From Chloroflexota bacterium (GTDB lineage: Bacteria; Chloroflexota; Limnocylindria; P2-11E; CF-107): a stretch of DNA of 50,680 nucleotides. Positions 5,337 through 43,236 of this stretch are shown here, one piece after another. Where the stretch lies: the NCBI GenBank assembly GCA_005881435.1, contig VBHP01000032.1, positions 11,277 to 61,956 on the forward strand. The letters run 5' to 3'. Positions within the stretch are counted from its first letter, which is position 1; each line of letters opens with the position of its first letter. Both the position numbers and the translations under genes were made by a program. The notes beneath the pieces are model-generated. The model made no database searches and was not told where the DNA came from. It was given only the letters and a program-made list of their open reading frames with translations.

Positions 5337-6248
5337 CTACTCAGTGGACTCGTGGCGCCGCGCTTGCGCACCGATGCCACGAACGCGCATGACCTGTGCC
5401 GTTCCGGCCCAACTCTCCTCCTCGGCGACGGCGTTCATCGCCGCGGCGACTCGCGGCGCGAGCCGCGCCGGCGCGATCGCGAGCACGGCGGGTCCAGCGC
5501 CGGACAGCACTGCACCGAACGCACCCGCTGCGCGCGCCGCCCGGGCAATGAAGTCGAGCGCCGGAACGAGTCGCAACCGGGCCGGCTCATGCAGACGATC
5601 GTGCATCGCCAGGCGCAGGAGCGTTCCGTCTTTCTTCAGCACCGCGGCGACGAAAATCGCGGTGCGCGCGAGATTGAATACCGCGTCGGCTCTCGCGACG
5701 CGCCGAGGCAGGATGCGGCGCGCCTGGCGCGTCGACAACTGACGGCCCGGCACGAAGATGACGGCCCGCCACGCGCGCGGGAACTCCAGGCTCGTCGCCA
5801 CCGGTCCCTCGGGCGACGGCGCCGCGATGGTGAATCCCCCGAACAACGCCGCCGCTACGTTGTCGGCGTGACCTTCGACGCCGGCCGCCGTGCGGAGCAA
5901 GCTCTGGCGGTCGAGCGGCCGGCCCAGGACCTCGTTCGCCGCGACACATCCGGCGACGATGGCGGCGGCGCTCGATCCAAGACCCCGCGCGATAGGGATC
6001 TCCGAGCGTTGGACCACGTGCAGGCCCTGCAGCTGCTCCTTCGCGGCTTTCGCCGTCGCACGCGCAGCGATCACCACGAGGTTCGAGCTGCCGCTCGGAA
6101 CGCCGTCGCCGTGGCCCTCGACACGCACCTCGTATCCCCGGCCGGGGCGCACATCGAACTCGGCGAGCAGCGGCAGCGCCAGGGCGAACGCGTCGAAGCC
6201 AGGGCCGAGGTTCGCGCTCGTGGCCGGGACGCGAACGCGAAATTCCAC
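5337..6248 (-). CDS. thrB: Homoserine kinase
   Basis: GHMP-family kinase that phosphorylates L-homoserine to O-phospho-L-homoserine, the substrate of threonine synthase. The 303-aa protein shows VPATSANLGPGFDAFALAL at the N-terminus, the ATP-binding GHMP motif PIARGLGSSAAA (about 85-96), and the C-terminal motif GAVLSGAGPAVLAIA. It sits 3 bp after thrC on the same strand, so thrC-thrB form an operon with ThrC translated first. Its product may also feed the second threonine-synthase-like enzyme at 40967-42202. Confidence 0.96.
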   Translation of the reverse strand: MEFRVRVPATSANLGPGFDAFALALPLLAEFDVRPGRGYEVRVEGHGDGVPSGSSNLVVIAARATAKAAKEQLQGLHVVQRSEIPIARGLGSSAAAIVAGCVAANEVLGRPLDRQSLLRTAAGVEGHADNVAAALFGGFTIAAPSPEGPVATSLEFPRAWRAVIFVPGRQLSTRQARRILPRRVARADAVFNLARTAIFVAAVLKKDGTLLRLAMHDRLHEPARLRLVPALDFIARAARAAGAFGAVLSGAGPAVLAIAPARLAPRVAAAMNAVAEEESWAGTAQVMRVRGIGAQARRHESTE

Positions 6249-6251
6249 TGG

Positions 6252-7316
6252 TTACACCACGGCCGAGGCGAAGACACGATCGCGCACCGCGGCGGCGGTC
6301 GCGGCGACGCGCTCGGGTGCGCGCGCCAGACGCCGAGCGGCATCGGGGTCCTTGAGTCCGCTGCCGGTGAGCACGCACACCACCACCTCGGCGCCTTCGA
6401 GGACACCGGTCGCGGCGCGCTTCAACAAGCCCGCGACGGATGCCGCCGAGGCGGGCTCGCAAAAGATCCCTTCCCGCGAAGCGAGCAGCGCGTACGCCGC
6501 GAGTATCTCTTCGTCGCTGACGGCTTCGATCGCGCCGCGCGATTCATCGCGCGCGCGCAGCGCGCCCTCCCAGGAGGCCGGGTTGCCGATGCGGATCGCG
6601 GTCGCCACCGTGTCCGGCCGTTCGACGCGCCGGCCCTCGACGATCGGCGCCGCCCCGGCGGCTTGGAAACCCCACATCCGTGGACGCCGCCTCGCCATTC
6701 GCGCCTCCGTGGCCTCGCGAAAGCCCTTCCAGTAGGCGGTGATGTTGCCGGCGTTGCCGACCGGGATACACAGGGCCTCGGGCGCGTCGCCAAGCGCCTC
6801 GCAGATCTCGAAGGCTGCGGTCTTCTGACCCTCGATCCGATGTGGGTTGACGCTGTTCACCAGCGCCGCGACCCCGTCGGCCGCCAGCTCCCGCGCGACG
6901 CGAAGGGCGTCGTCGAAGGAACCCTGCAGCGACAGGACACGAGCGCCGAAGACCTCAGCCTGCGCCAGCTTTCCGAGAGCGACCTGGCCCTCGGGGAGCA
7001 AGACGACGCAACGGAGGCCGGCGCGCGCGGCGTATGCGGCCGCGGATGCCGCGGTGTTCCCTGTCGAGGCGCACAACACCGCTCGCGCACCGCCCTCGAC
7101 GGCCTTCGCGACGGCGACCACCATGCCGCGGTCCTTGAACGAGCCGGTCGGATTCTGCCCCTCCACCTTGAGCCACACCTGCGCGATGCCGGTGCGCGCC
7201 TCGAGAGCAGGCGCCCGAACCAACGGCGTATCACCTTCGCCGAGCGTCAGTCGTGGTGTCGAGGCCGTGATCGGGAGGTGCGCCGCATAGCGCTCGATGA
7301 GCGGCCGCGGAAGCAC
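6252..7316 (-). CDS. thrC: Threonine synthase (actinobacterial type)
   Basis: PLP enzyme converting O-phosphohomoserine and water to threonine. The 354-aa protein lacks a zinc ribbon and resembles the actinobacterial form: [28 protein letters not shown] with Schiff-base Lys61, [38 protein letters not shown] and [16 protein letters not shown] chose GTG 7316; the frame is open to 7382, but upstream starts overlap the divergent gene beginning at 7376. Contrast with the zinc-ribbon paralogue at 40967, which carries the SAM riboswitch. Confidence 0.95.
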
Positions 7317-7375
7317 GGGTGGGGAGTATATGTCCAGCCCTACCAGACGTAGACGCGCGGTTAGCATGCTCGACG

Positions 7376-8497
7376 ATGCCACGTGACACGGAGCGGACCC
7401 TTCGCATCTCGACGCTCACACTCGCGGTCGTTGCGCTGTCGCTGTGGATCTTCGCGACGGTGGAGCAGCTCTTCGAGCGCGTCGCCGACGTCGTGCTGGT
7501 CTTTGTGTTCGCGTGGGCGCTGGCGTATCTCCTCGCCCCCGCGGTGATGTGGCTGGAGCGGCGCGCGCACCTCGGCCGCCTGTCCGCGGTGCTGATCGTC
7601 TACGCCGGAATGGTGGTCGGTCTGGCGATCGCCCTCGCGCTCGTCGTTCCGGTCATCGTGACGCAGCTCTCCGGCCTGGTCACAAACGCGCCGCAGTACG
7701 GTGAGGCGCTGGCGGGGCGCGTCCTGCAGCTGCAGCGCGACCTGACGTCGCGCGGCATCAACGTCGACCTGGCCACCATCTACGCCGCGATTCCCGAGCG
7801 GCTGGCGGCAATGGCCGCCGCGATCGCGTCGCAATCGGTCGCACTCGTCGGCGCCACCCTGACGCTGCTGTTCGACGTGACCCTGGTCGCGATCGTCGCC
7901 TTCTTCATGCTCATCGACGGCGAGCGGCTGTGGCTGGACCTCCTGTCGGCGCTTCCGGCGGACCTCCGCAGTGAGGCCGAGCTGCTGCGGTACAGCGCGG
8001 ACCGCTCGTTCGGCGGATTCTTGCGCGGCCAGCTGATCCTCGGCTTCGCCTACGGCGTGATCGTGCTGATCGCGTTCCTCATTCTCGGATTGCCCTTCGC
8101 GGTGCTGCTGGCGGTGTCGTCAGGCCTGCTGATGGTCATCCCGTTCTTCGGCGCGATCATCGCCACGTTCCCACCGGTACTGGTGGCGCTGACGCAGAGC
8201 CTCGAGCTCGCAGTGGGGACGTTCATCGCGGTCGCAGTGATTCAGAACGTGATGACGAACTTCGTCGGCCCGCGCCTGATGGCGCAGACGGTCGGCATCC
8301 ATCCGTTGCTCGTGTTCGCGGCGTTGCTTGTGGGCGCACGCGTCGCCGGCCTCTGGGGAGTATTCCTGGCGCTGCCGATCGCCGGGATCCTGAACGTCTT
8401 CGCGCGATACGCCCTGGAAGTCGCCTCGGGCCGGCGCGCGCGCACCGAGGCCTCGCGCATGTTGTCGGAGCGGGAGCAGCGCCGAGCACGCCGGTGA
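7376..8497 (+). CDS. AI-2E family (PerM/YdiK-like) transporter
   Basis: 373-aa integral membrane protein with the family pattern: two N-terminal TM segments, a long amphipathic middle region (about 85-160), then a cluster of TM helices with [24 protein letters not shown] and the conserved [15 protein letters not shown] and [26 protein letters not shown] motifs. Members export small molecules or ions; the name from AI-2 export is not evidence for that here. ATG 7376 is preferred over an upstream frame extension to 7319 because that would overlap thrC. The stop overlaps surE by 4 bp (GTGA). Confidence 0.9.
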
Positions 8498-10304: not shown

Positions 10305-11105
10305 CTAGCTGGCGGAACGGCCCGCACGCGTTATTGGTACTTCCGGCACGATCGCTGCCACGCCGTCGTGCCAGTACACCCTCGCCGGAACGCCGAACAC
10401 GTTCGCCAGCAGGCCCGCAGTGACCACCTCGGGGCCCAGACCGTCGGCAACGACGCGACCGACATTGAGAACGACGAGACGCTCGAAGTGCGATGCCGCG
10501 AGCGCGAGGTCGTGCATCACAGCGATCACGGTGATTCCCCGAGATGCCGCGAGCGCGCGGACCAGCGCCAGGATGCGGAGCTCGTGCTTCACGTCGAGAT
10601 GCGTGGTCGGCTCGTCGAGCAACAGGATCGCGGACTCTTGCGCCAGCGCCATCGCGAGCAGCACGCGCTGCCGCTCGCCGCCGGAAAGCTCGGCGAACGG
10701 ACGCTCGGCGAGCGAGGCGGCGTCCACTTCATCCAGCGCGCGATCGACCGCGACGCGGTCGGCGCGTGACTGGCTTCCAAAGAAGCCGACGTGCGGCGTG
10801 CGTCCCAGCGCTGCCACCTCGCGGGCGCTGAACGCGAATGGCAGCACGAACGTTTGCGGGACCATCGCGATTCGGCGAGCGCGCTCGCGGCGATCGATGC
10901 CGGCGAGATCGCGGCCGTCGAGCAGCGCGACTCCGGCTCGCGGCGCGAGGAGGCCGGCGAGCGTCTTGAGCAACGTCGTTTTGCCCGAGCCGTTCGGCCC
11001 TACGAGCGCGACGCATTCGCGACGTTCGACCGCCAGATCGACGCCGCGCAGCGCCAGCAACGGACCGTAGCCGGCCTGCAGGCTGCGGAGCTCGACCACG
11101 CTCAT
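10305..11105 (-). CDS. btuD: Cobalamin-type ABC transporter ATP-binding protein
   Basis: 266-aa ATPase of the BtuD/FecE/HmuV class. Walker A GPNGSGKTT (36-44), Q-loop MVPQTF, signature LSGGERQR (140-147), Walker B ILLLDEPTTHLD and the switch His in VMHDLALAA are intact. ATG 11105 overlaps the permease stop by 4 bp, so btuF-btuC-btuD are co-translated. Iron-siderophore and haem importers have the same architecture; the cobalamin riboswitch upstream of the operon (13063-13141) is what favours B12. The upstream frame extension to 11714 is a shadow of the permease gene. Confidence 0.9.
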   Translation of the reverse strand: MSVVELRSLQAGYGPLLALRGVDLAVERRECVALVGPNGSGKTTLLKTLAGLLAPRAGVALLDGRDLAGIDRRERARRIAMVPQTFVLPFAFSAREVAALGRTPHVGFFGSQSRADRVAVDRALDEVDAASLAERPFAELSGGERQRVLLAMALAQESAILLLDEPTTHLDVKHELRILALVRALAASRGITVIAVMHDLALAASHFERLVVLNVGRVVADGLGPEVVTAGLLANVFGVPARVYWHDGVAAIVPEVPITRAGRSAS

Positions 11106-12109
11106 AAGCGGTACCCGGCGCGATGTCGCCACAGCAGCGCGAAGAAGAACGGTCCGCCGATGAGGCCGGTGACGACACCCACCGGCAGCTCCGTCGGCGC
11201 CAGGGCGATCCGCGCCAGCAGATCGGCGGCGACGAGGAACGCCGCACCGGTGAGCGCGGCGGCGGGGATGAGCCGCGCGTGGCCCGGACCGAGCACGGCG
11301 CGCACCAGATGCGGCGCGACGAGCCCGACGAATCCGACCAGACCCGCCAGCGACACGGCCGCAGCCGCGAGCAACGCCGACGTCGCCAGCACCAGCCGCT
11401 TCGTCCCTTCGACGTCGACGCCCAGCGTCGCGGCGACGTCGTCGCCCAGGGAGAACGCATCGAGACGGTGCGCCACGGCGATCGCGACCGCGAGCGCCGC
11501 GCCGACGAGCACCGCGGCCACGGCGAGCTGGGCCCAGCTGATCACCGAAACACCGCCGACGAGCAGCCCGAGCAGCGTCGAGAGCCGGAGCTGCAGCCTG
11601 TCGCCCGCGACCTCGAGCAAGGTGATCAGAGAGCCGGCCACCGCGGAGAGCACCACGCCCGCGAGCAACAGCGTCACGACCGGCGTCTCGGCGCCGACTC
11701 GGGCAAGCCGCCACACCAGCACGACAGAAAGGAGTGCGCCGGCGAATGCCAGCGCCGGAACCGCGAACAAACCCAGCGCGCCGCCGAACAGCAGTCCGAC
11801 CACGGCCCCAAGCGCGCCGCCGGCGGATGTGCCGAGGACGTACGGGTCGGCGAGCGGATTGCGGAGCAGGCCCTGCAGCAGCGCTCCGGCGCCGGCGAGC
11901 GCCGCACCGACGAGCCCGGCGCCGAGCACGCGGGGAAGTCGCAGCCCGAGGATGATCGCCGTCTCCGTCGGATCGCCGCGCCCGGCGAGCGACGCGACAA
12001 CTCGATCCGGTGGGATCGCGACCGCGCCGTACGCGATGCCGAACACGATCGCGAGACAGACCACGGCCGCGAGCGCAGCCAGCGCGATCGCGAGCGGCAC
12101 TCGCGTCAC
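11102..12109 (-). CDS. btuC: Cobalamin-type ABC transporter permease
   Basis: 335-aa FecCD/BtuC permease with about ten TM helices. Conserved pieces are LRLPRVLGAGLVGAALAGAGALLQG, LRNPLADPYVLGTSAGGALGA, the SLGDDVAATLGVDV coupling region and LVGFVGLVAPHLVRAVLG near the C-terminus. It overlaps the upstream binding-protein gene by 4 bp and the downstream ATPase gene by 4 bp. Substrate call rests on the cobalamin riboswitch, not on the permease sequence. Confidence 0.92.
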   Translation of the reverse strand: MTRVPLAIALAALAAVVCLAIVFGIAYGAVAIPPDRVVASLAGRGDPTETAIILGLRLPRVLGAGLVGAALAGAGALLQGLLRNPLADPYVLGTSAGGALGAVVGLLFGGALGLFAVPALAFAGALLSVVLVWRLARVGAETPVVTLLLAGVVLSAVAGSLITLLEVAGDRLQLRLSTLLGLLVGGVSVISWAQLAVAAVLVGAALAVAIAVAHRLDAFSLGDDVAATLGVDVEGTKRLVLATSALLAAAAVSLAGLVGFVGLVAPHLVRAVLGPGHARLIPAAALTGAAFLVAADLLARIALAPTELPVGVVTGLIGGPFFFALLWRHRAGYRL

Positions 12110-13020
12110 GGTGTCGCCGCCAGGATCTGGTAATACGCCTCGGCCGCCTGCGGCAGGCGCGGTCCCGGGCGATTCAGCAACGAGCCCTCGACCTTGACGA
12201 TGCGCTTGTTTTTCACCGCGGTGATGACGGACCAGCCCGGCCGCGCCGCGATCTGCTCCGCCGTGACGCCGAACGAGCCGAACACGATGACCTGAGGATC
12301 GGCGCGGACGATCTCTTCGGGTGAGAGCTGCGGGTACTGCGAGCCGGCGCTCGCGGCGATGTTGATGCCGCCGGCGATGCCGATGAGGTCGTCGATGAAC
12401 GACCCTGGGCCGACGGTGAACAGCTTGTTCGGATCGCTGGCGTCGACCTCGTGGTAGACGCGCTTCTTCGGCAGCGTCGCCGCCTTCGTTCGTACGGCGT
12501 CGAGGCCGCTCTGCACTGTGTTTGCCAGCGCGTCGCCGTCCGCGCCGATGGCGCGCCCCAGGAGGATCGCCGTTCTGGCCACATCCCCCGCGCCTTGCGG
12601 ATTCACGATGAGCACGGCGATCCCCTGCGCGCCGATGCTCTGGAGGGATCCGTCGGAGATCTGCACGCTCACGACAAGGTCCGGCCGGAGCGAGACGATC
12701 TTTTCGACGTTCGGCTTGACGCCGCCGACCTTCTCCTTGTCTTTGGCGGCGGCGGGCTCATCGGAAAAGTCGTCGACACCGACGATGCGGTCCGCCGCAT
12801 TCAGAGCGAACAGAAACTCGGTGTTCGAAGGTCCGATGGACACGATCCGATCGGGGCGCTTGGCGATGGTGACGGACTTGTTCTGAAAATCGGTGACGGT
12901 CACGGGGAACGAGATCGGCGCGACGGTCGCGGACCTGCTCGCGGAAGGCAAGAGGGAAGCGGGACTGCCGCCACATGCGGCGAGGACGATGAGAAGGACA
13001 GCGAAGATGCTGCGTCGCAT
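12106..13020 (-). CDS. btuF: Cobalamin-type ABC transporter substrate-binding lipoprotein
   Basis: 304-aa class III binding protein. Lipobox VLAACGG (Cys about 16), Ser-rich spacer, then the TroA-like fold with RIVSIGPSNTEFLFAL, VGVDDFS, KVGGVKPNVEKIVSLRPDLVV and GSFIDDLIGIAGGIN, all typical of BtuF/FepB. First gene of the importer operon. Its leader contains the cobalamin riboswitch and a purine-rich ribosome site (AAAGGGG about 13026-13032) 5 bp from the ATG, so B12 could block translation or transcription here. Confidence 0.92.
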   Translation of the reverse strand: MRRSIFAVLLIVLAACGGSPASLLPSASRSATVAPISFPVTVTDFQNKSVTIAKRPDRIVSIGPSNTEFLFALNAADRIVGVDDFSDEPAAAKDKEKVGGVKPNVEKIVSLRPDLVVSVQISDGSLQSIGAQGIAVLIVNPQGAGDVARTAILLGRAIGADGDALANTVQSGLDAVRTKAATLPKKRVYHEVDASDPNKLFTVGPGSFIDDLIGIAGGINIAASAGSQYPQLSPEEIVRADPQVIVFGSFGVTAEQIAARPGWSVITAVKNKRIVKVEGSLLNRPGPRLPQAAEAYYQILAATP

Positions 13021-13062
13021 CGGTATCCCCTTTCTCGCGAAGGCGGAGTGACCAGCGCTGCA

Positions 13063-13141
13063 TTCGAAGGCGACCCGACTCTGCGCATCTCGCGCATCAC
13101 GGTGGCGGGACCGTGCCGGAATCTCACCGGCTTCGCTTCGA
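13063..13141 (-). ncRNA. Cobalamin riboswitch aptamer
   Basis: On the minus strand the leader holds the B12-box core: GCCGGTGAGATTCCGGC, then CACGGTCCCGCCACCGTGA (13097-13115), matching the conserved GGTGAAxTCC and GACCCGCxACTGT segments of the family. A later AGTCGGGTCGCC fits the J6-3 strand. Closing helix P1 is TTCGAAG (13135-13141) with CTTCGAA (13063-13069). The peripheral domain is short, as in class II-like aptamers. It lies about 43 bp before btuF. No intrinsic terminator follows, so control of translation initiation is more likely. Confidence 0.85.
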
Positions 13142-13152
13142 AGAGCGGTTAT

Positions 13153-14064
13153 TCAGTTGGCGCGTGGAGTATATGACGCGACCTGGCGGACGGACGCGGC
13201 CGGCGCCGCAGCGACACGATCCGACTGCAGCACCGAGGCGAGCACCTCGACACCCTCGATCAGCCGCGGACCCGGACGGCTGAAGTACGACGCGCCGTCG
13301 ACGGCGTAGATGCGTCCCGCGCGCGCGGCCGCGAGCGCCGCCCAGTCGTCGCGCGAGAGGAGGAGCTCGGCCTCGGCGGTTGCCCGCTCCACGCCGAAGC
13401 CACATGGCATGAGCACGATGAAATCGGGATCCGCGCGGCGAAGCTCCGCGAACTCGATCTCTCGCGAGCGCTCGCGCGCGCGGCCGAGGACGTCCTCGCC
13501 ACCCGCCAGTGCGACCTGCTCCGGCACCCAGTGACCGCCGTTGAACAGCGGATCGAGCCACTCCAGACACGCGACGCGGGGACGCGACACCCCGTCGACA
13601 GCGCAGCGGATCGCTTCGAGGCGGATCCGAAGCGACGTGGCGAGGGCCGCGCCACGCTCCTCGACGCCGAGTGCCACGGCTAAGCGCGCGAGATCATCGA
13701 ACATCCCATCCAGCGACGTGGCTTCCAGCGGGACGATGCGAGCGCGCATTGCGGCGGGCAGGGACTCGAGGGTCACAGCGCAGACCGCGCACAGCGTCTG
13801 TCCGACGATGACCTCGGGGTCAGCGGCGCGCAGCGCCTCGCCGTCGAGGTGAAAGGTGCTCTCGCCGACCGCCGCGGCCCGGCGTACGGCCGCGTCGATG
13901 GCGCCGCTCGATGCTCCGGCGGCGATCGTCGATCGCGTTACACGCGGTAGCGCTCGCACCTCGGGCGGGAAATCGCAATCGTGGGTGACGGCGACGAGCC
14001 ACGAACCCAGACCCAGCGCCGCGACCATCTCCGTGCCTGCCGGCACGAGCGACACGACACGCAC
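13153..14064 (-). CDS. Cobalamin-binding (BtuF-like) protein without signal peptide
   Basis: 303-aa TroA-like protein starting directly with the fold strand VVSLVPAGTEMVAALGLGSWLVAVTHDCDFPPEV, so it has no signal sequence or lipobox. Other motifs: GQTLCAVCAV, LEWLDPLFNGGHWVPEQVALAGGEDVLG, and SRPGPRLIEGVEVLA. The THDCDFP and CAVC segments are typical of the widespread cytosolic 'cobalamin-binding protein' branch whose role is unclear. GTG start at 14064. It ends 11 bp before the riboswitch of btuF and diverges from the Dph6-like gene with only 17 bp between starts. Confidence 0.88.
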   Translation of the reverse strand: MRVVSLVPAGTEMVAALGLGSWLVAVTHDCDFPPEVRALPRVTRSTIAAGASSGAIDAAVRRAAAVGESTFHLDGEALRAADPEVIVGQTLCAVCAVTLESLPAAMRARIVPLEATSLDGMFDDLARLAVALGVEERGAALATSLRIRLEAIRCAVDGVSRPRVACLEWLDPLFNGGHWVPEQVALAGGEDVLGRARERSREIEFAELRRADPDFIVLMPCGFGVERATAEAELLLSRDDWAALAAARAGRIYAVDGASYFSRPGPRLIEGVEVLASVLQSDRVAAAPAASVRQVASYTPRAN

Positions 14065-40790: not shown

Positions 40791-40904
40791 CGCTCTTATC
40801 AAGAGGGTGGAGGGAGACGGCCCGATGAAACCCGGCAGCCTGCGGCTCCAGTCCGCAAGGTGCCAAGTCCGCCGGATCCGTAAAGGATCCGGAAGATAAG
40901 AGGC
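40791..40904 (+). ncRNA. SAM-I (S-box) riboswitch aptamer
   Basis: Canonical S-box core: P1 CGCTCTTATC paired with GATAAGAG(G)CG (5' strand ends at 40800, 3' strand starts at 40895), then AAGAGGGTGGAGGGA, the GATGAAACCCGGCAGCC segment, a P3 hairpin, AGGTGCCAAGTCC and a P4 hairpin GGATCC/GGATCC. Binding of SAM stabilises P1 and lets the terminator at 40916-40945 form. It controls the threonine-synthase-like gene 40967 and the CysO-like gene behind it, placing them in methionine/SAM supply. Confidence 0.95.
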
Positions 40905-40915
40905 GGAACTGAAGG

Positions 40916-40945
40916 ACGACCCCGTCGGGGTCGTTTTTCTTTTTC
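40916..40945 (+). terminator. Riboswitch-controlled intrinsic terminator
   Basis: ACGACCCC-GTC-GGGGTCGT (8-bp perfect stem, 40916-40934) followed by TTTTTCTTTTT. It lies 11 nt after the SAM-I aptamer and 21 nt before ATG 40967, as expected for a transcriptional OFF switch. Confidence 0.93.
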
Positions 40946-40966
40946 CCCTCGTTGGAGGTAAGCGTC

Positions 40967-42202
40967 ATGTCCCAGCGATACTCGCTTCGCTGCCGTGGAT
41001 GCGGCGCCGCGTATCCCGCCGACGACCGGCACGCCTGCGAGCGCTGCCTCGGCCCGCTCGAGGTCGTGTACGAGCTCGACGGCAGGGGCGATGCGCTCCG
41101 CCGCACGATCGAATCGGGAGACGGCTCGATCTGGCGCTACTGGCCGCTTCTGCCCATCGACGAGCCGCGCGATCCCGGCCAGGTGGGCTGGACGCCGCTG
41201 CAACGCGCCGACCGTCTCGGCCGGCAGCTCGGCCTGCGCAACCTGTTCCTCAAGAACGACACCGTGAATCCGTCCTTCTCGTTCAAGGACCGCGTCGTCG
41301 CGATCGCGGCGCAGAAGGCGCTCGAGCTGGGGTACGGCACGATCGCGTGCGCCTCGACGGGCAATCTCGCCGGTGCGGTCGCGGCGGCGGCGGCGCGACT
41401 GGGGCTAGAGGCCGTGGTCTTCGTTCCGTCGACGATCGAACCGGCCAAGCTCACGGCGCCGACGGTGTACGGGGCCAAAGTCGTCGAGGTCGATGGCACC
41501 TACGACGAAGTGAACCGGCTCTGCGCGCAGGTGGCGGATGAGCGGCACTGGGCTTTCGTCAACTTCACGCTCCGCCCGTACTACGTCGAGGGCTCGAAGA
41601 CCCTGCTGTTCGAGACCGCGGAGCAACTCGAGTGGCGCCTTCCGGACGCGGTCGTCATCCCGGTCGCGTCAGGGGCGCTGTTCGTGAACACGGCCAAGGC
41701 AGCGCGAGAGCTCGTTGACGCTGAACTGGTGCGGCCTCTTCGGGCTCGTCTTTTTGGCGCGCAGCCGGAGGGCTGCGCACCCGTCGCCGCCGCCTTCGAT
41801 CACGGCGAGGACCACTACGTGCCGGTGCGCACGCCGAGGACGATCGCGCACTCGCTCGCGATAGGCGCCCCCGCCGATGGCAACGCCGTTCTCGCGCTGT
41901 CGCGTGACAGCGGCGGTGCGGTCGTGTCCGCGGATGACGACGCCATCGTCGCTGCGATCCGCACGGTCGCGGAGGGCGAGGGCATCTTCGTCGAGCCCGC
42001 GGCCGGCGTGACCCTCGCGTGTCTAGCCCGTCTCGCGCGCGAAGGCGCGATCGAGCCGGACGATCTCGTCGTCGCGTATCTGACTGGCAACGGCTTCAAG
42101 ACGCCCGAGGTCGTGCCGGCGCCGGAGGATCGGCGCATCCGGATCGGTGCGCGTCTCGACGATTTCGAGCGCGCCTTTCCGCAAGCTTTGGAGGTGGCGT
42201 GA
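40967..42202 (+). CDS. Threonine-synthase-like PLP enzyme, candidate homocysteine synthase
   Basis: 411-aa fold-type II PLP enzyme. An N-terminal zinc ribbon (Cys9, Cys12, Cys24, Cys27) is followed by GWTPLQRADRLG, NDTVNPSFSFKDRV with Schiff-base Lys107, ACASTGNLAGAVAAAAARLG and VAYLTGNGFKTPEV. By sequence it is a threonine synthase paralogue and probably binds O-phosphohomoserine. But a true ThrC is already present (6252), this one is under a SAM-I riboswitch, and its stop overlaps (TGATG) a CysO-like sulfur carrier. I infer it uses carrier thiocarboxylate instead of water to make homocysteine, as CysM does with O-phosphoserine. Ribosome site GGAGGT at 40953-40958. Confidence 0.85.
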   Translation: MSQRYSLRCRGCGAAYPADDRHACERCLGPLEVVYELDGRGDALRRTIESGDGSIWRYWPLLPIDEPRDPGQVGWTPLQRADRLGRQLGLRNLFLKNDTVNPSFSFKDRVVAIAAQKALELGYGTIACASTGNLAGAVAAAAARLGLEAVVFVPSTIEPAKLTAPTVYGAKVVEVDGTYDEVNRLCAQVADERHWAFVNFTLRPYYVEGSKTLLFETAEQLEWRLPDAVVIPVASGALFVNTAKAARELVDAELVRPLRARLFGAQPEGCAPVAAAFDHGEDHYVPVRTPRTIAHSLAIGAPADGNAVLALSRDSGGAVVSADDDAIVAAIRTVAEGEGIFVEPAAGVTLACLARLAREGAIEPDDLVVAYLTGNGFKTPEVVPAPEDRRIRIGARLDDFERAFPQALEVA

Positions 42203-42468
42203 TGGCTCGCGTTCGGCTTCCCACGGTCTTGCGCCCGCTTGCCGGCGGGGTGACGACCATACCGATCCAGGCCTCGCGGCTCGATGCGCTTCCGGCGGAG
42301 CTCCGCGCCTCGCAACCGAAGCTCGCCGAGCGGGTCCTTGCGGGCGATTCCTTCTCCGAGTTCGTGAGCGTCTTCGTCGACGGCGAAGACGCGCGTTATC
42401 TCGGAGCCGAGATCGCGCTGGGCGAGGCGACGGAGGTGACGCTGCTGCCGGCGATCTCGGGCGGCTAG
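42202..42468 (+). CDS. CysO/MoaD-like sulfur carrier protein
   Basis: 88-aa beta-grasp protein ending in the diagnostic Gly-Gly that is activated to a thiocarboxylate by a ThiF/MoeB-type enzyme. It resembles mycobacterial CysO: RLPTVLRPLAGG near the N-terminus, FVSVFVDGEDARYLG in the middle and the C-terminal VTLLPAISGG. ATG 42202 overlaps the TGA of the threonine-synthase-like gene, so the two are made in fixed ratio. The E1-like activator and any Mec-type peptidase are not in the window. Confidence 0.92.
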   Translation: MARVRLPTVLRPLAGGVTTIPIQASRLDALPAELRASQPKLAERVLAGDSFSEFVSVFVDGEDARYLGAEIALGEATEVTLLPAISGG

Positions 42469-42480
42469 CCTTCGGCCGAG

Positions 42481-43236
42481 TTGACGACGCTCGCGCTGAA
42501 GCTGGTGCTGACGCCGGTGCTGATCGGCGGCGCGAGCCTCATCGGACGCCGCTTTGGACCCGGCGTCGCGGGATGGTTGATCGGGCTGCCGTTCACGTCC
42601 GGGCCGATCGCGTTCTTCCTGACGCTCGAACGAGGTGAGGCGTTCGGCGCCGCGGCCGCGGCGGGCATTCTCGCGGGCACGGCGTCGCAAGCGGCTTTCT
42701 GTCTGGCCTATGCCTGGGCCGCGCGCCGGCGCCAGTGGCCGGTGGCGCTTGGCGCGGGCAGCCTCGCGTTCGTGCTCGTCACCGTTGCGCTCAATAGCGC
42801 CTCGCCGCCGATCGTGACGACGGTGATCCTGGCCATCGCCTCGCTGTTGATCTCGATCCCGCTCTTACCTCGCGGCGTTCCGCCGCGCGCGAGTCCGGCG
42901 CTGCCGGCCTGGGATCTTCCGGCGCGAATGACTCTGGCCACGGTCTTCGTCCTGGTGCTGACGACCATCGCCGCCGCCCTCGGACCGTATCTGACGGGTC
43001 TGCTGTCGCCGTATCCGTTGTACGCCGCGATCCTGGCCGCGTTCGCGCAACACCACGACGGTCCGCAGGCCGCGACGCGAACCCTGCGCGGCCTTCTCTT
43101 CGGGCTCTTCGCTTTCGCCGGCTTCTTCTTGGCGTTGAGCCTGTCCCTCGAGACGCTCGGCGTCGGGGCCGCGTTCGCGGCGGCAATCGCCGTCGCGCTA
43201 GTGATCGAAGCGGCTTCGTTCCGGCTGGCGCGCTAA
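42481..43236 (+). CDS. Multi-TM membrane protein downstream of sulfur-carrier gene
   Basis: 251-aa protein with about seven or eight hydrophobic segments: LALKLVLTPVLIGGASLIG, GVAGWLIGLPFTSGPIAFFL, GILAGTASQAAFCLAYAWA and later pairs to the C-terminus. Conserved-looking GWLIGLPFTSGP could line a substrate path. Start TTG 42481 lies 12 bp after the CysO-like gene and so probably in the SAM-controlled operon. No family recognised; a transporter is possible. Confidence 0.72.
   Translation: MTTLALKLVLTPVLIGGASLIGRRFGPGVAGWLIGLPFTSGPIAFFLTLERGEAFGAAAAAGILAGTASQAAFCLAYAWAARRRQWPVALGAGSLAFVLVTVALNSASPPIVTTVILAIASLLISIPLLPRGVPPRASPALPAWDLPARMTLATVFVLVLTTIAAALGPYLTGLLSPYPLYAAILAAFAQHHDGPQAATRTLRGLLFGLFAFAGFFLALSLSLETLGVGAAFAAAIAVALVIEAASFRLAR

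Follow-up and report, generated by a model that had tools for sequence, protein, structure and literature searches.

The window analysed here, a stretch of 50,680 nucleotides of Chloroflexota DNA, very probably carries a MetM/MetO operon governed by a SAM-I riboswitch, which is the best explanation of what we found. With equally high probability, we predict from the sequence that its two genes make homocysteine from O-phosphohomoserine with sulfur delivered by a carrier protein. Hasebe et al. 2024 (AEM 90:e01247-24), in the part of their work recounted in PMC12172450, describe MetM of Streptomyces as a homocysteine synthase that converts O-phosphohomoserine to homocysteine, and metO, a gene of the sulfur-carrier family, as its partner. 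A sequence-only reading of the window had proposed such a homocysteine route as a novelty; the predicted function fits all the evidence, and the idea is right in kind but not new, because, as far as that account goes, MetM/MetO had already been described. The window pair is a further, well-supported example of the Streptomyces chemistry: the reaction itself was published by others for the homologues from Streptomyces, and by analogy the window copy would carry out the same one.

Table 1. Positions in the window of the predicted operon and of the genes sharing its substrate.
Feature	Position	Strand	Basis
SAM-I (S-box) riboswitch aptamer	40793..40902	+	Rfam RF00162, 82.6 bits, full length
Riboswitch expression platform, an intrinsic terminator with a 13-bp stem, a 3-nt loop and a run of U	40911..40939	+	Terminator scan and fold
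metM-type gene for a 411-aa PLP enzyme with a zinc ribbon, of the threonine-synthase kind and predicted to make homocysteine from O-phosphohomoserine	40967..42202	+	PF00291, MetM-type clade, STGNLA
metO-type gene for an 88-aa sulfur carrier like ThiS/CysO, with Gly-Gly at the C-terminus	42202..42468	+	PF02597, relative of 3dwg_C, conserved beside metM
Ordinary threonine synthase thrC, STGNT motif, competing user of O-phosphohomoserine	6252..7382	-	Search match, motif
Homoserine kinase of the thrB type, expected to supply O-phosphohomoserine	5337..6248	-	Recognised from sequence (GHMP-type), adjoins thrC

In the Rfam search of the window, the aptamer matched 108 of 108 model positions and far exceeded the gathering score (82.6 against 44.4 bits). 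The terminator stem is directly followed by TTTTTC, and the leader folds into the aptamer plus this 13-bp stem at -74.4 kcal/mol, compared with a mean of -53.7 for shuffled sequences (z -5.1). With a full aptamer above the curated score and an expression platform both present, the leader is a SAM-I riboswitch, just as the sequence-only reading had stated. Its place upstream of the metM-type gene matches the arrangement at S. albulus metM, for which PMC12172450 relays a SAM riboswitch.

The product of the metM-type gene, whose ATG is preceded by GGAGG, matches the PALP family (PF00291) at 2.8e-73 in the Pfam search and exceeds the TIGR00260 cut-off for the threonine synthase family. It opens with a CxxC…CxxC zinc ribbon (C9..C12 and C24..C27), and K107, within SFKDR, is the predicted PLP lysine. 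The substrate-binding motif of ordinary threonine synthase is altered: the window's own ThrC and four solved threonine synthases carry STGNT, and the metM-type protein carries STGNLA instead, as do all 107 of the 107 MetM-type proteins that we checked. Judging from this pattern, the residue that separates the two motifs may set the choice of nucleophile. STGNLA offers a simple annotation marker that separates MetM from ThrC.

In a tree of 58 proteins, built by a quick method and with a long ThrC branch, the window protein falls into one clade with homologues from Chloroflexota, Actinomycetota, Cyanobacteriota, Nitrospirota and Aquificota, and the split that leaves ordinary ThrC and a third ThrC-like paralogue outside has an SH-aLRT of 99. 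Among 61 genomes (the host and 60 relatives), 26 contain a MetM-type protein (E < 1e-100), clearly separated from both ThrC and the third paralogue. The nearest named relatives are Chloroflexota, and Actinomycetota homologues are about 46-53% identical to the window protein. As proxies for S. albulus MetM we used the Nonomuraea homologue (49% identity over 92% of the protein) and those of large genomes of the Actinomycetota phylum (46-48%). The third paralogue itself lies on another contig of the host (C115, L109:8421-9605, minus strand) and is a threonine synthase by NF006050 (576 bits); it sits near cystathionine-beta-synthase-like and cystathionine gamma-synthase/lyase genes and is kept in relatives.

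The carrier gene is joined to metM by a TGATG overlap of the metM TGA with the metO ATG. Its product matches ThiS (PF02597) at 3.1e-8, ends in …ISGG, and has a mycobacterial CysO-type chain, 3dwg_C, as its best solved relative (7e-11). The earlier description of the locus as a zinc-ribbon threonine-synthase paralogue whose stop overlaps an 88-aa Gly-Gly carrier is therefore borne out by PF00291, PF02597, the CxxC pairs and ISGG. Twelve bases past the carrier stop begins an ORF for a membrane-protein-like product of 251 aa (42481-43236, plus strand, TTG start) that has no match in Pfam or NCBIfam; it may or may not belong to the metM-metO operon.

The sequence-only reading had proposed looking for conservation of the pair behind SAM-I in related genomes, and this is what we observed. 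The metM-type gene is followed closely by a carrier gene in 21/26 relatives, within 1.6 kb downstream in 71/82 wider loci from other phyla, and nearby on the same strand in 18/26 loci from the phylum of an Actinomycetota MAG, two genomes larger than 9 Mb included. The gene order of the window pair is also that of Actinomycetota loci, namely Nonomuraea (L191) and the large genomes L219 and L220. SAM-I precedes the metM-type gene in nine relatives besides the window, in eight loci of Chloroflexota, Actinomycetota or Bacillota plus Nonomuraea, and in 12 of the 20 loci of a further set that includes genomes of the Actinomycetota phylum; it was not found in the sampled cyanobacterial, Nitrospira and Aquificaceae metM-type loci. 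Five relatives of family f3 (L011, L023, L025, L028 and L031) have SAM-I and the metM-type gene with no adjoining carrier. Each of these five has a ThiS gene beside an E1 or JAMM gene elsewhere in the genome, and this ThiS protein may serve as their carrier.

Across genomes, MetM-type and MetX/MetY genes are for the most part mutually exclusive. In families f1-f3, 22 genomes have MetM only, 12 have MetX/MetY only, 4 have both and 5 have neither (Fisher p=0.0004, indicative only because related genomes were treated as independent). Across the full set of 61 genomes, which takes in the MetM-free families f4-f5, p = 0.03. Swaps between the two routes occur inside single genera. The exclusion is incomplete: four relatives carry both the MetM and MetX routes, and MetX is also present in 5 of 19 more distant MetM genomes. 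We called MetX at E <= 1e-20, since the curated cut-off was reached by no genome, controls included; nearly all of these matches adjoin a MetY match.

In the host genome itself, profile searches gave no match for MetX or MetA, and none above cut-off for MetY, with the limit that, the genome being 92% complete, MetX/MetY could sit in a gap of the assembly. The situation that the sequence-only reading had named as speaking against it, a full MetX/MetY route and no co-conservation of the pair, is thus not what we found: our searches of the host yielded none of MetX, MetY and MetA, and the pair is widely conserved. As a caveat to this absence, the host encodes two other PF01053 (Cys/Met-metabolism PLP) enzymes, of which one scores above a cystathionine gamma-synthase cut-off and the other stays below all cut-offs. 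The gene of the former adjoins a cystathionine-beta-synthase-like gene, which suggests reverse transsulfuration; homocysteine could therefore also feed cysteine. The E1 and the JAMM peptidase expected by the sequence-only reading were both located: the host encodes one rhodanese-ThiF E1 (399 aa) and one JAMM protein, whose gene lies beside a CysM-like gene, as well as several ThiS proteins. Elsewhere in the window, an AdoCbl riboswitch (13018-13157, minus strand) stands directly before genes for an ABC binding protein, permease and ATPase (12106-13020, 11102-12109 and on), in what resembles an ordinary operon for cobalamin import.

We propose the following sequence of events for the window pair. 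When SAM is low, the terminator would not form and both genes would be transcribed. The rhodanese-ThiF E1, encoded elsewhere in the genome and presumably the one that serves this carrier, would adenylate and thiocarboxylate its Gly-Gly end. MetM would bind the O-phosphohomoserine supplied by ThrB and eliminate the phosphate as in threonine synthase, and sulfur from the carrier thiocarboxylate would then be added at C4 in place of water to yield homocysteine, the product being released by a JAMM-type peptidase or by hydrolysis. In the 2024 work on Streptomyces, thiocarboxylated MetO reportedly donates sulfur to O-phosphohomoserine on MetM.

The fold and family of the enzyme are those of threonine synthase, as the TIGR00260 match attests, so that it might be a plain second threonine synthase, perhaps with threonine deaminase activity, with its carrier neighbour and SAM control incidental. 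A Microcystis homologue, annotated ThrC and 51.6% identical to S. albulus MetM, lends some substance to this: it has threonine synthase and threonine deaminase activity in vitro and gave no clear homocysteine production there (PMC12172450). According to the same paper, its neighbour gene resembles S. albulus metO and belongs to the sulfur-carrier family. The MetM-type family may therefore not be uniform. For the window, however, we rejected this explanation as very unlikely. An ordinary thrB-thrC pair lies in the same window, in agreement with the sequence-only reading; a role in threonine synthesis would give no reason for SAM control; the carrier has been kept in several phyla; the change from STGNT to STGNLA is invariant; and MetM largely excludes MetX/MetY.

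Other PLP enzymes of the MetM-type fold use sulfide, and the five relatives whose MetM lacks an adjacent carrier could be taken to mean that free sulfide or cysteine is the main sulfur donor to the same substrate, the enzyme being an O-phosphohomoserine sulfhydrylase or cystathionine gamma-synthase with an auxiliary carrier. This is highly improbable given that the carrier is translationally coupled in the window and the pairing widespread elsewhere, and those five genomes may use the ThiS gene that lies beside E1/JAMM on one contig. A cysteine synthase of the CysM/CysO kind, acting on O-phosphoserine, has in its favour that the closest solved chain to the carrier is of the mycobacterial CysO type. 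We rejected it as extremely improbable, since the enzyme is of the ThrC and not the CysM kind, a separate CysM-like gene lies beside the host JAMM gene, and the SAM riboswitch points to methionine.

Homocysteine synthesis by a MetM/MetO pair is thus the reading that we retain, and the window pair shares with its Streptomyces counterpart a ThrC-like enzyme, a downstream carrier gene and an upstream SAM riboswitch, along with the conversion of O-phosphohomoserine to homocysteine, which for the window pair is a prediction. It differs in coming from another lineage, with Chloroflexota relatives, and in the overlap of the metM stop with the metO start. In the mycobacterial CysM/CysO/Mec system, which makes cysteine from O-phosphoserine, a PLP enzyme likewise takes sulfur from a Gly-Gly carrier thiocarboxylate, and CysO is a sequence relative of the window carrier; the window enzyme, by contrast, is ThrC-like, its substrate is one carbon longer, and the CysM-like gene beside JAMM in the host is a separate one. 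Wolinella HcyS / MetY makes homocysteine from a carrier thiocarboxylate, as predicted here, but with O-acetylhomoserine as substrate and an enzyme of the MetY type, whose PLP fold is a different one, and neither MetX nor MetY was found in the window's host genome. The MetM/MetO route is not confined to Streptomyces and is likely the methionine route of many bacteria without MetX/MetY. Such genomes are often annotated with a spare threonine synthase, and predictions of methionine auxotrophy would be corrected by recognising it as MetM.

Upon inspection of the relatives' loci, we noticed that the carrier, which in the window is unfused and ends at Gly-Gly, can be part of a larger protein. Ten relatives, which belong to two genera, have a carrier ORF just after the metM-type gene that is fused in frame to a broad-specificity-type class I/II aminotransferase (PF00155) (L012, L014, L015, L017, L019, L020, L026, L027, L029 and L030). 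At the junction, …SGG is followed by a linker of 15-18 residues and then the PF00155 domain, with no intervening stop. Four of the ten linkers contain no ATG, GTG or TTG codon, so separate initiation of the aminotransferase is unlikely there, and the arrangement is likely a true fusion that needs cleavage. In one further relative (L009:494-1480, minus strand), the in-frame fusion instead joins the carrier to DUF4395 and a thioredoxin-like domain. A limited literature search found no paper on a carrier-aminotransferase fusion, and the observation may be new.

MoaX of M. tuberculosis provides a precedent in that its internal Gly-Gly must be cleaved (PMC4326299). The fusions resemble it in joining a carrier domain with an internal Gly-Gly to a second domain, which is MoaE in MoaX and a PLP aminotransferase in the relatives. 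By analogy with this cleavage, the fused carriers should need a peptidase. We consider it an even call whether fused MetO would have to be cut after the internal Gly-Gly before thiocarboxylation, so that methionine synthesis in those relatives would depend on MoaX-like processing. Eight of the ten fusion genomes contain a JAMM gene above cut-off and the other two are incomplete, but JAMM is common throughout the genome set. The fused forms would allow the release of a sulfur carrier by cleavage to be put to the test.
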